Source: Acidobacteriota bacterium (GTDB taxonomy: Bacteria > Acidobacteriota > Vicinamibacteria > Vicinamibacterales > SCN-69-37). From it: 64,000 nt of DNA. Every line of letters begins with the position of its first letter. The first letter of the stretch is position 1. The position numbers and the translations under genes are program-made. The stretch covers positions 62,001 to 126,000 of the forward strand of contig JADYYY010000007.1 in NCBI GenBank assembly GCA_020853395.1, in the 5' to 3' direction. The notes under the pieces are model-generated. The model did not search any database, was not told the DNA's origin, and saw only the letters and a program-made list of their open reading frames with translations. Positions 43,365-48,112 of this stretch are shown here, piece after piece.

Positions 43365-45197
43365 ATGCCTCGTTCGTACCGAGTCAGGCCCGTCGCTCGC
43401 CGCTTCCGCGCCGCCCCCCTTTTCTTCGGGGTTCTGCTGGCATTGCTCGCCCTGCCTCGTCTGGCGGCGGCGCAGATGGACGCTGTCGTGGAGTCGGACA
43501 CCGACTGGACCGACGCCATTCCAGCGCACCTGTCGGTCGTCGAGGGCGACGCCTCGCTCGAGCGGGACGGCCAGCTCGAGCGCGCGATCGAGAACATGCC
43601 GCTGCTCGCGGGCGATCGGCTCGTCACCAAACGCGGCCGGGTCGAGGTGCTGTTCGCCGACGGCAGCGTCCTCGACGTCGACGAGAGCTCCGCCATCGAG
43701 TTCTTGTCCGACGAGCTGCTGCGGCTGACGGCCGGACGCGTCCGCCTCACGATCGCGCGCGGCGCCTCGCCGGTGGATTACCGCGTCGACGCCGCCGGTA
43801 CCTCGGCGCTCATCGGCTCGCCGGGCGAGTACCGCCTCGATCTCTACGATGCCAGCGCGTACGCGCCGGAGGTCCGGCTCACCGTGATGCGAGGGAGCGC
43901 CGAGCTGTCGACCGCCGCAGGGCGCACGCTCGTTCGCGCCGGCTACGAGGCGCGCGCGACCGCGCAGAGCGAGCCGTCGCTGCCGTCGTACGCGAACGCG
44001 TCGGCATGGGACGACTTCGAGCGCTGGGCGCTCAACCAGCGCGACGGCCGGCTCGGCGTGTCGGCGCAGTATCTGCCGGCCGAGCTGCGCTACTACAGCG
44101 GCGCCTTCGACCGCGATGGCTGGTGGCGGTATCAGCAGGATGTCGGGTACGTCTGGTATCCGCGCGTGGCGGCCGACTGGCGGCCGTACTACGACGGCGG
44201 CTGGTCGTATGTCGGCGTGTTCGGCTGGACCTGGGTCGGCGGCGGCCGATGGGGCTGGCCGACGCACCACTACGGCCGCTGGGGCTTCTCGGCAGGCGCC
44301 TGGTACTGGATTCCCGGACGACGATGGGCGCCGGCGTGGGTGTCATGGGCGTCGGCGCCGGGCTACGTCGGCTGGTGTCCGCTCGGCTGGGACAACCGGC
44401 CGGTCGTCTCCATCATGCAGGTGAACATCTACAACAACCGCACGCGCGGCTGGACGGTGCTGCCCGATCGCTCGTTCGGCACCCGCTACGCGACGCCCCG
44501 AAGCTTCGCCAACTCCCGCGCGATCGTCGTCGACAACCACCGCTTCGCGCCGAGTCCCGTCGCCCCAGTGCGCCCGGCGTCGGTGCGCGACGATCTGCGA
44601 CCGCTGCGGGCGCCGACGCCGCGCGCCGCGCGCGCCGCCACGGCTCGTGAGCGCGGCGGCGACCTCATCGTGCGTGGCGACGCGCGGAGCCAGACGGCGA
44701 TGCCGCGGGCACGATCGGCGAGCGCCGCGCCGCCGACCGCTGAGGTGATGCCACCGCGCGGCGGCGACGACACGAGCTCCGCGCGGCCGCGCGCACGTGC
44801 GCTCCCATCGTCTGGCGCCTACGGAGGCAGCCGAACACCGGCGGCGCGGCCCGGCGCGGCGGCAGGCGACGATCGATCCGACGCGCCGAACGCACCGACA
44901 GTGCCGCGCATGGGTCGCTCGCGCGGCACCGACCGGAGCGCACCGCCTTCGGCACCGCCGCCGTCGACGGATCGGCCGCAGTACGGCCGCCGCGCGCCGT
45001 CCAGCCTGCCGTCGCGACCAGCGGCAGAACCCCCGAGCCGCCCGACGTCGACGCCCTCACGCCCATCGGCGGAATCCTCGCGGCCATCCGGCGGCTCCAC
45101 CGCGCGCGCTCGCAGCGCTCCAGCAGGCCCGCCTCCGTCTTCGCCAGCCCAGGGGTCGCGTTCCGAAAGCGCGAGCGGCAGGGCGAGGACGCGTTGA
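43365..45197 (+). CDS. Exported FecR-domain / DUF6600 protein
   Basis: 610 residues with a signal peptide (cut near AAAQM, residue about 37). Residues about 55-200 are FecR-like (LSVVEGDASLERDGQ, GDRLVTKRGRVEVLFADGS). Residues about 240-345 are Trp/Tyr-rich in DUF6600 style (DWRPYYDGGWSYV, WVGGGRWGWPTHHYGRWGF). The last 200 residues are low-complexity Pro/Ser/Arg/Ala, probably disordered. FecR domains elsewhere sense or bind at the envelope; here no sigma factor is adjacent. A -10-like TATCAT lies 38 bases upstream. The gene is transcribed away from dnaK. Function unknown. Confidence 0.75.
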   Translation: MPRSYRVRPVARRFRAAPLFFGVLLALLALPRLAAAQMDAVVESDTDWTDAIPAHLSVVEGDASLERDGQLERAIENMPLLAGDRLVTKRGRVEVLFADGSVLDVDESSAIEFLSDELLRLTAGRVRLTIARGASPVDYRVDAAGTSALIGSPGEYRLDLYDASAYAPEVRLTVMRGSAELSTAAGRTLVRAGYEARATAQSEPSLPSYANASAWDDFERWALNQRDGRLGVSAQYLPAELRYYSGAFDRDGWWRYQQDVGYVWYPRVAADWRPYYDGGWSYVGVFGWTWVGGGRWGWPTHHYGRWGFSAGAWYWIPGRRWAPAWVSWASAPGYVGWCPLGWDNRPVVSIMQVNIYNNRTRGWTVLPDRSFGTRYATPRSFANSRAIVVDNHRFAPSPVAPVRPASVRDDLRPLRAPTPRAARAATARERGGDLIVRGDARSQTAMPRARSASAAPPTAEVMPPRGGDDTSSARPRARALPSSGAYGGSRTPAARPGAAAGDDRSDAPNAPTVPRMGRSRGTDRSAPPSAPPPSTDRPQYGRRAPSSLPSRPAAEPPSRPTSTPSRPSAESSRPSGGSTARARSAPAGPPPSSPAQGSRSESASGRARTR

Positions 45198-45203
45198 CCA
45201 GAA

Positions 45204-45287
45204 CAAAGGGCAAAGGGCAGAGGGCAAAGGGCAAAGGTAAAGGGACGAAGGGAAAAGGAAGGGACGAAGGGGAAAAGGGAGAAGGGC
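45204..45287. repeat. Heptamer array, arm A (CAAAGGG units)
   Basis: Starting 7 bases after the stop of the FecR gene, CAAAGGG repeats every 7 bases (exact or one change) for five units, then degenerates to AAGGG-rich purine sequence. The reverse complement of this arm closely matches 45800-45878. The purine strand has many GGG runs that could form a quadruplex. Confidence 0.85.
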
Positions 45288-45329
45288 TCTGATATCGCAC
45301 GCGGTCGTCGGGCCGGCGGGCTCGACAGG

Positions 45330-45383
45330 TCGTTGCCGGTCGGCTCGCTCGGGACGTCGTTGCCGGTCAGCTCGCTGGGGACG
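45330..45383. repeat. Two 27-bp direct repeats
   Basis: Units 45330-45356 and 45357-45383 both read TCGTTGCCGGTC-GCTCGCT-GGGACG with two or three differences. They lie just inside arm A of the heptamer arrays in a 695-bp non-coding stretch. The rest of that stretch (45384-45692) shows no gene, RNA or promoter that I can support. Confidence 0.7.
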
Positions 45384-45692
45384 AACGGTGGGCGTTCGTC
45401 TCGGATTCGCGCGCACTGCGCCATCACGATGACGACGTGGCGGTAACGGTCACGTCGTCGTTCGCACGGCGACGATGGCTCGTGTCGTTGGGGTGGAGGG
45501 CGCTCGCCGGGTCCGAGCCTCCTTGAACCGTCGCGTCGCCGACGTCACCGCCGCGACACCCTCCATGCCCTCACGAACAACCCGTCTCAGCCCGTCCTCG
45601 GGACCGGACGCGCAACCCTAGGCCCGCCTGCTTGCCGGCCCCACTTCACGCGGCACAAGATCTCCTCTGGCCTGTCCCGGGAACGCTGCGGG

Positions 45693-45879
45693 TCCCTTCG
45701 CCCTTCGCCCTTCGCCCTTCGCCCTTCGCCCTTCGTCCTTCGTCCTTCACCCTTGACCCTTCACCCCTTGCCCCTTCACCCTTCGTCCTTCACCCTTCCC
45801 TTTCCCCTTCTCCCCTTCGTCCCTTCCTTTCCCCTTCGCCCCTTTACCTTTGCCCTCTGCCCTTTGCCCTTTGCCCTTG
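45693..45879. repeat. Heptamer array, arm B (CGCCCTT / TTTGCCC units)
   Basis: At 45693-45760 CGCCCTT repeats every 7 bases, drifting to CGTCCTT and CACCCTT. From about 45800 it becomes the inverse of arm A, ending in TTTGCCC units. The array stops one base before the TAGACT that precedes the PBP gene. It stays open as a reading frame but codes only Pro/Ser/Leu/Phe repeats, so I treat it as non-coding. Confidence 0.85.
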
Positions 45880-45892
45880 TAGACTGGCAGTC

Positions 45893-48112
45893 ATGCGTCT
45901 CGCGGCAAGCTTGGCTCGTGGCGTCGGTATCGCCGCGTTGTTCCTCGCGGCCGCGCTGTTCGGGACCGCTGGCGGCGTGCTGTTCGCGTTCGTCGGCGAC
46001 CTGCCGCAGATTTCGGCGCTCGACGACTACACGCCCGGCACCATCACGCGCGTGCTCGGCCGCGACGGTGCCATCGTCGGCGAGTTCGCCACCGAGCGCC
46101 GCGTGGTCGTCACCTACGACCAGATCCCGGTCGTGCTCCGCAATGCGCTCGTGGCGGCCGAAGACGGCGATTTCTTCCATCACCCGGGCGTGGACGTGCG
46201 GCGCATCGCCGCGACGGCGTTTCGGCGCGCGGTCGGGCTCCAGCGACGCGGCGGCGCCAGCACGATCACGCAACAGCTCGCGCGCAAGCTGTTCCTGACC
46301 GACGAGGTCACGCCGGAGCGCAAGATCAAGGAAGCGCTGCTCGCCATCCAGATCGAGAAGCGGTACACGAAGGAGGAAATCCTCACGATGTACTGCAACA
46401 AGATGTACTGGGGGCACGGCATCTACGGGGTCGAGGCCGCCTCGCAGCTCTACTTCGGCAAGTCGGTGAAGGACCTGACGCTCGACGAGGCCGCGATGAT
46501 CGCCGGCATTCATCAGAGCAACGTCCGCCAGAGCCCGTACACCAACATGGCGGCGGCTGTCGCGCGGCGCAACTACACGCTCGATCGGATGGCCGACGAG
46601 GGGTTCGTCCGCGCCGAAGAGGCCGCCGCGGCCAAGAAGCGGCCGATCGTCACCCGCGGGCGCCCCACGCCGCCGCCGTCGATCGCGCCGTACTTCCTCG
46701 AGACCATCCGCACGCAGCTCGAAGAGCGCTACGGATCGAAGGCGATCTACGAGGGCGGGCTCGTCGTGCACACCGGGATCGATGCCGAACTGCAGCGCGC
46801 CGCCAACCTCGCGCTCGACAACGGCATCCGCCGGCTCGACAAGCTTCGCGGCTATCGCAAGCCGTCGCGCAACGTCCTGCAGGATGGGCGGTCGATCGAC
46901 ACGTTCCGCCACCCGCGCTGGACGCACGATCCGATGCCGGCCGAGGTGATGCCGGCCGTCGTGACGGAGGTGACGCCGGCGGAGCTCCGCGTCAGGGTCG
47001 GCCGGTTCGCCGGGACGATCGCCAAGGCCGGCTACCAGTGGACGAACCGGCCGCCCTCGCAGCTCGCCCGGCGCGGCGATCTGATCGAAGTGCGGATCGG
47101 CAAAGTCGACGACAAGACGGCCTCGTTCGCCGGCGCGCTCGAGCAGACGCCAGTGCTCGAGGGCGCGGTCGTCGCGATCGAGAATCGCACCGGCCAGCTC
47201 CTCGCGCTCGTAGGCGGCACGGACTTCGAGCGGACCCAGTTCAACCGGGCCACGCAGGCGCTGCGCCAGGTCGGTTCGCTCTTCAAACCGTTCGTCTACG
47301 CGACGGCCATCGACCGCGGCTACACGCCGATCTCGCTGATCGACGACTCGCCGGCGAGCTTCGACGCCGGTCCAGGCCAGCCGCCGTACCAGCCGCAGAA
47401 CTACGACCACGAGTACCACGGCATGGTCACGCTGCGCGCGGCGCTCGAGGAATCGCGGAACATCCCGACGATCCGCCTGATGGCCGCGCTCGGCCCGCGC
47501 GAAGTCGTGCGCGTCGCGCGGCAGATGGGCATCACGTCGCCGCTGCCCGAGTACCTGTCGGTGGCGATCGGCTCGGCCGAAGCGACGCTGCTGGAGATCG
47601 CCTCCGCCTACACGGCGTTCCCCAACCAGGGCGTCCGCATGGCGCCGACCGCGCTCCTCGACGTCGTCGATCGCGACGGCAACACGCTCGAGCAGCATCG
47701 CGTCGAGCCCCACGAGGCCCTGCGCGCCGACACGGCGTACGTGATGACGAGCCTGCTGCAGGGCGTCGTGGAACACGGCACCGCGCAGGCCGCGCGCGCG
47801 CTCAACTGGCCGCTCGGCGGCAAGACCGGCACGACCGACGACTACTCCGACGCGTGGTTCATGGGCTTCGATCCGGACATCACGCTGGGCGTGTGGATCG
47901 GCTACGACCAGAAGCGGCCCATCGGACACAACCAGACGGGCGCCGTCGCCGCGCTGCCGATCTGGCAGGAGATCATGAAGTCCTGGGTCGAGCGGCAACG
48001 CGCCGCGCGCCCGGAGCCGCCCACCTTCCCGCGCCCGGAGAACATCGTGACCGTGAACGTGGCCGGCGGCCCCGAAGTGTTCATCGCCGGCACCGAGCCC
48101 GGCGCGCGCTGA
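45893..48112 (+). CDS. Class A penicillin-binding protein (PBP1A type)
   Basis: 739 residues from ATG 45893; one membrane helix at about 12-34. The glycosyltransferase (GT51) domain has Glu90 in AAEDGDFFHHPGVD and GGASTITQQLARKLFL (120-135). The transpeptidase has SLFK (Ser462-Lys465), SRN (521-523) and KTG (644-646). It polymerises and crosslinks peptidoglycan. The frame is open upstream through the heptamer array, but the helix and homology begin here. TAGACT lies seven bases before the ATG, so expression may depend on a promoter whose -35 side lies in the array. Confidence 0.92.
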   Translation: MRLAASLARGVGIAALFLAAALFGTAGGVLFAFVGDLPQISALDDYTPGTITRVLGRDGAIVGEFATERRVVVTYDQIPVVLRNALVAAEDGDFFHHPGVDVRRIAATAFRRAVGLQRRGGASTITQQLARKLFLTDEVTPERKIKEALLAIQIEKRYTKEEILTMYCNKMYWGHGIYGVEAASQLYFGKSVKDLTLDEAAMIAGIHQSNVRQSPYTNMAAAVARRNYTLDRMADEGFVRAEEAAAAKKRPIVTRGRPTPPPSIAPYFLETIRTQLEERYGSKAIYEGGLVVHTGIDAELQRAANLALDNGIRRLDKLRGYRKPSRNVLQDGRSIDTFRHPRWTHDPMPAEVMPAVVTEVTPAELRVRVGRFAGTIAKAGYQWTNRPPSQLARRGDLIEVRIGKVDDKTASFAGALEQTPVLEGAVVAIENRTGQLLALVGGTDFERTQFNRATQALRQVGSLFKPFVYATAIDRGYTPISLIDDSPASFDAGPGQPPYQPQNYDHEYHGMVTLRAALEESRNIPTIRLMAALGPREVVRVARQMGITSPLPEYLSVAIGSAEATLLEIASAYTAFPNQGVRMAPTALLDVVDRDGNTLEQHRVEPHEALRADTAYVMTSLLQGVVEHGTAQAARALNWPLGGKTGTTDDYSDAWFMGFDPDITLGVWIGYDQKRPIGHNQTGAVAALPIWQEIMKSWVERQRAARPEPPTFPRPENIVTVNVAGGPEVFIAGTEPGAR

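Follow-up and report, generated by a model that had tools for sequence, protein, structure and literature searches.

Tandem heptamers with the potential to form G-quadruplexes (G4) were described by Rehm et al. 2015 (PMC4692102) in Xanthomonas and Nostoc, where GGGNATC repeats, preferentially of four units, lie within 50 bp of a stop codon on the sense strand or of a start codon on the antisense strand. Each Xanthomonas genome carries 70-75 inverted pairs of these repeats, and generally no association with mobile elements was observed (PMC4692102). Bacterial heptameric G4 repeats have so far been described without a known origin. Among the small bacterial MITEs, Correia elements have been proposed as promoter carriers (PMC2229807). 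Here we analyse a pair of inverted heptamer arrays in front of a penicillin-binding protein (PBP) gene of an Acidobacteriota bacterium. The arrays form the two ends of a single copy of a small, hairpin-forming and probably mobile element, which lies between neighbouring genes at dozens of places in this genome and occurs in some relatives, and not a one-off switch of cell-wall synthesis. A literature search on GGGCAAA repeats or Acidobacteria heptamers yielded nothing direct.

Results

Inverted heptamer arrays at the PBP locus

The window is the 64,000-nucleotide stretch C7:62001-126000 (70.6% GC) of a 4.28-Mb genome, here called G000. Its relevant features, in window coordinates, are as follows.

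43365..45197, plus strand: upstream gene, FecR/DUF6600 protein (Pfam PF20245, PF04773 weak), stop codon at 45195-45197
45204..45287, minus strand: left arm (arm A), whose tip at 45204 points left; minus is the C-rich strand; one of the 38 aligned arms
45288..45692, no strand: spacer, 405 bp, single copy, without a convincing gene
45693..45797, plus strand: inner part of arm B, a heptamer extension of (CCCTTCG)6 followed by degenerate CCTTCG/CCCTTCA units
45798..45879, plus strand: right arm in the strict sense (the conserved portion of arm B), with the end ...TTTACCTTTGCCCTCTGCCCTTTGCCCTTTGCCCTTG; its tip, at 45879, points right
45880..45885, plus strand: -10-like hexamer TAGACT, abutting the arm B tip
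45893..48112, plus strand: downstream gene, class A PBP (transglycosylase and transpeptidase; Pfam PF00912, PF00905)

Arm A, whose tip is located 6 bp past the stop codon of the FecR/DUF6600 gene, consists of five CAAAGGG-type units in period 7 from 45204 and a subsequent irregular purine tract. Arm B (45693-45879) opens with six perfect CCCTTCG units, and positions 45798-45878 match the reverse complement of 45206-45286 with 91% identity over 81 nt without gaps; the two period-7 arrays and their inverted relationship, as reported in the earlier note, are thus real. Of the 38 arms, A and B match one another best and thus belong together. CCCTT/AAGGG words number 30 in the kilobase at 45 kb and at most four in any other kilobase of the window. 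The view that nothing else has this sequence therefore holds for the window, but not for the genome with its ~38 arms. The inner extension (45693-45797) was met at the window locus only in the genome search, its (CCCTTCG)6 run is separated from the -10 hexamer by 140-185 bp, and it is possibly a slippage tract.

No second copy of the spacer was detected in G000, in nine relatives or in plasmids, and a conserved element body is hence ruled out for this single-copy sequence. The spacer includes a 27-bp repeat in two copies at 45329-45383 (GTCGTTGCCGGTCAGCTCGCTCGGGAC; TRF). Scanning the feature region against Rfam gave no match, and terminator-like sites appeared at chance level only.

The ATG of the PBP gene (45893) follows TAGACT, which agrees with the -10 consensus in four of six positions. 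At the corresponding loci of the relatives G002 and G003 the array is absent and TACAGT is found at nearly equal distance from the ATG, indicating that the -10-like hexamer is native to the PBP gene. A stricter sigma-70 scan of the junction between arm B and the PBP gene returned no promoter at the set threshold. The position of the arm B end beside a -10-like hexamer, pointed out in the earlier note, is confirmed and returns throughout the family (see below).

A dispersed family of G4-capable arms

G000 carries ~38 arms of ~75-85 nt, all G4-capable and with their tips pointing outwards. The tip pattern gave 92 matches in this genome and the reversed-pattern control none; the array is therefore far beyond chance. 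Alignment of the arms revealed a consensus end ...TTTACCTTTGCCCTTTGCCCTCTGCCCTTTGCCCT, which is preceded by a non-heptameric pyrimidine tract, and this non-heptameric part (CTTTTCCC..TTTACC) is kept in common by arms from different loci and genera. The arm unit is GGGCAAA/GGGCAGA. In 25 of the 38 arms the perfect run comprises exactly three CCCTYTG units plus CCCT, that is four tracts, and all 38 match the four-tract G-quadruplex motif, so that the predicted quadruplex potential is supported at the level of the motif.

Most arms of G000 are single. Seven inverted pairs enclose non-coding DNA, all of them between co-directional genes, and pair mates are closest relatives in some cases only. The pairs C9:35226-35671 and C13:113959-114544 have a common inner sequence that differs from the other arms; the tip thus occurs with two or more kinds of inner arm. 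Inspected by eye, the spacers of the other long pairs bear no apparent relation to one another, and tandem repeats of their own are present in some. The nuoD-nuoE element (C9:35226-35671; L053:6227-6672) harbours about nine 36-bp repeats seemingly derived from its own inner arm. We also considered C7:182914-184373 as a gene-bearing copy and rejected it, because, as judged from the starts of the translations, it seems to consist of ordinary genes with an arm on either side.

Counting arrays genome-wide and in relatives, as the earlier note had proposed, located the tip pattern, patchily distributed, in 8 out of 193 genomes from the class. In G065 (C25:214616-215296; L091), two arms ~0.6 kb apart flank DNA in which a long stretch of (CCCTGCG)n precedes the right tip. 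Plain (CCCTTTG)n arrays are present in many unrelated phyla. At loci L106-L224, from Cyanobacteria, Bacteroidota, Chloroflexota, Geobacter and others, (CCCTTTG)n stands beside arrays of further heptamers such as GCCATTT, CGTAATT and GCCTTTA, as if heptamers interconvert by mutation within arrays.

Compact elements and empty sites in relatives

The family relative G005 (WY5.bin136) contains compact palindromes of 105-180 bp, the best copies of which are bounded by perfect 11-bp terminal inverted repeats (TIRs), CCTGTTAGGGC/GCCCTAACAGG. Full-length copies at unrelated loci of this genome are up to 94% identical, and a 145-bp copy in G000 (C13:78173-78317) aligns end to end with a G005 copy at 79%.

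Empty sites were identified by comparisons between species (~58-85% identity) rather than strains. Gaps of ~205 and ~181 bp in G005 correspond to ~23 and ~13 bp in its congener G006. At the first of these sites the element tip provides the stop codon of the upstream gene (TGT TAG GGC), whereas the G006 genes overlap in ATGA. Likewise, nuoD and nuoE are separated by a 446-bp element in G000, and by -4 to ~27 bp in ten relatives. The gap at the PBP locus measures 695 bp in G000 versus ~45-100 bp in G002, G003 and G013.

No consistent direct repeat that would indicate a target-site duplication was observed at the ends of the G000 pairs or of the G005 copies. A search with the TIR ACCTGTTAGGGC in seven genomes uncovered no transposase at the one single match inspected in detail, the only exact match in G006, which lies inside an ordinary gene. 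The RAYT family of Y1 transposases (PF01797) had no match in G000, G057 and G105, all of which carry arms.

Tips at stop codons and -10-like hexamers

Stop-facing tips are mostly found 0-14 bp from the stop codon and nearly all within 50 bp. About half of the start-facing tips lie within 50 bp of a start codon and the remainder farther away; as genes were called with a simple codon-usage script made for this analysis, single distances to start codons are approximate. A TAnnnT hexamer occurs 1-4 nt past the tip at 11 of 19 start-facing tips and at none of the 19 other tips, compared with a background of 0.022 per five positions in the 120 nt upstream of genes (binomial P = 4e-14). A random distribution of the arrays with no positional bias, which the earlier note had named as speaking against its reading, is therefore not observed. 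That each tip might also contribute a -35 hexamer, TTGCCC, at a spacing of 17 nt to the -10 is a weak idea at most, as the window has CTGCCC there.

The arms adjoin a variety of unrelated genes, including nuoD-nuoE, a tRNA-Met gene and the linker of ligD in G000, and uvrC in G005. The tRNA-Met gene (C8, L052:6172-6247) ends with its 3' end ~4 bp from an arm tip. In-frame arms occur in ligD of G000 (C11:83243-83320; L059:16744-16821), where the ligase C-terminal domain is joined to the primase-polymerase domain by a charged linker (RRAKGRGQRAKVKGEGEREGKGEKAKG) that the arm encodes, and in uvrC of G005 (C69, L165:571-640), where a single arm resides in a linker that is variable among relatives.

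Predicted RNA structure

As a 676-nt RNA, the feature is predicted to adopt one structure of -349 kcal/mol (z -11.7) with a closing stem of ~80 bp, in agreement with the long hairpin proposed for the arms. Among 12 full-length copies, compensatory changes affect 7 of 46 pairs and the covariation term is near zero. The palindrome is thus clear, yet these data provide no evidence of selection on RNA structure as such.

Discussion

On the basis of these results, we consider it likely that the paired arms and their spacer make up one copy of a palindromic MITE-like element, dispersed and non-autonomous, that resembles ERIC and Correia and whose terminal inverted repeats would be built of G-rich GGGCAAA/GGGCAGA heptamers. 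The family is dispersed, near-identical full-length copies exist in a relative, related genomes have empty sites, and the tips are tightly placed at stop codons and -10-like hexamers. Terminal inverted repeats are present both in the 11-bp ends of the G005 copies and in the window arms (91% over 81 nt), as are dispersed copies of a defined unit together with empty sites. Against this reading stand the lack of a target-site duplication and, unlike in a classical MITE, a window spacer in single copy and spacers of the other G000 pairs that seem not to resemble each other. The failure to find a transposase, including the absence of RAYT from G000, the predominance of single arms in G000, the limited number of pair mates that are closest relatives, and empty sites that were compared between species instead of strains likewise count against it. 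The element behaves like a bacterial MITE, and its membership falls short of a full one by the target-site duplication and a known transposase.

The most likely history of the window locus is that some transposase, acting in trans, mobilized the element into the short gap between the FecR/DUF6600 and PBP genes, where it came to lie between the stop codon of the former and the native -10 region of the latter, and that the spacer and the inner (CCCTTCG)n tract grew after insertion. The tip would now occupy the sequence immediately preceding the -10 and may determine how strong the PBP promoter is, as a constant setting and not as a switch; when transcribed, the element would form a long hairpin in the mRNA.

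An unlikely explanation is that the arrays are not mobile but grew in place by replication slippage as G4 heptamers, the pairs arising through local inverted duplication. It would fit the Xanthomonas repeats, which share the period, the G4 motif, the positional rule and the frequent inverted pairs (PMC4692102), and it would also fit the plain (CCCTTTG)n arrays of many phyla, the mutual best match of the window arms and the perfect (CCCTTCG)6 of arm B. The conserved non-heptameric arm part shared across loci and genera argues against it, and the 94% identical full-length copies at different loci together with the clean empty sites imply that a ready-made unit was inserted, which already weakens growth in place. 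Somewhat less improbable, and compatible with a mobile origin, is that selection maintains the pair because a promoter-proximal G4 or hairpin sets downstream expression and protects or terminates the upstream transcript. The -10-like hexamers at 11 of 19 start-facing tips, the short distances of the other tips from stop codons, the strong fold and the near-constant four G-tracts agree with such a role, but purifying selection on surviving insertion sites can explain the placement as well, the consensus pairs vary little, with few compensatory changes, and the family is confined to 8 of 193 genomes in the class.

Simple sequence repeats beside promoters are known switches, and the perfect inner (CCCTTCG)6 tract could slip. 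The proposal of the earlier note that array length acts as a phase-variable switch on the PBP gene, and so on cell-wall synthesis, is nevertheless unsupported and very improbable: the unit number near the promoter is almost fixed (the same in 25 of 38 tips), the perfect run is remote from the -10, the 38 arms adjoin unrelated genes, and Rehm et al. thought phase variation unlikely for their heptamers (PMC4692102). Hardly any credence can be given to the arms being REP/REPIN elements moved by a RAYT. Both are small palindromic intergenic repeats with inverted pairs, and G005, like several relatives, has RAYT-like genes; however, the carriers G000, G057 and G105 lack Y1_Tnp while arm-less relatives have it, and no GTAG/CGTC tag is visible at the foot of the tips. 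For G000, which has no PF01797 match, a RAYT/REPIN system is ruled out.

If the element is mobile, heptameric G4 repeats would be the ends of a small mobile element, and their origin becomes testable, because the same positional rule and inverted pairing are found here alongside full-length palindromes and empty sites. We tentatively extend this to a broader proposal, itself rather doubtful: at least in Vicinamibacteria, G4 heptamer repeats may terminate mobile elements of a foldback-like family. These would insert at gene junctions, precisely in the interval from stop codon to -10, and their heptamer tips would take the place of the native promoter's upstream half; comparable G4 heptamers of other phyla may share this origin. 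As copies split tight operons such as nuoD-nuoE and abut -10-like hexamers, they offer naturally occurring insertions in which to study the influence of a long RNA hairpin or quadruplex on the expression of an operon.

Compared with the repeats of Rehm et al., the present ones are likewise intergenic G3N4 tandem heptamers that prefer four G-tracts (38/38 for the motif and 25/38 for the exact run), with the G-rich strand sense after stops and antisense before starts, frequent inverted pairs between aligned ORFs and a position within 50 bp of stops or starts, although for start-facing tips this applies to about half. They differ in their GGGCAAA/GGGCAGA unit, which does not conform to GGGNATC, and in a conserved arm that is longer and partly non-heptameric. 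Further differences are full-length palindromes with TIRs, the empty sites of related genomes and the -10-like hexamers that immediately follow tips. With ERIC/IRU and Correia/NEMIS (PMC2229807) the family has in common a compact form of ~105-180 bp, TIRs, dispersal between genes, a whole transcript that folds as one long stem-loop, and filled as well as empty sites; in contrast to these, the element is GC-rich instead of A+T-rich, lacks TA termini, shows no target-site duplication, and combines tandem-heptamer arms with spacers of up to 0.4-0.5 kb and common single arms. Rickettsia palindromic elements also occur in-frame within protein-coding genes, as the arms do in the UvrC (G005) and LigD (G000) linkers, but they have a different sequence and host, and coding copies are a minority here. 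Foldback transposons of eukaryotes possess inverted arms composed of short tandem repeats, and the middle that these enclose is variable and not conserved. The arm architecture is alike, and the analogy is one of architecture only, since the element described here is much smaller, bacterial and without a known transposase. The present family unites the two descriptions, that of Rehm-type heptamers and that of small bacterial MITEs.
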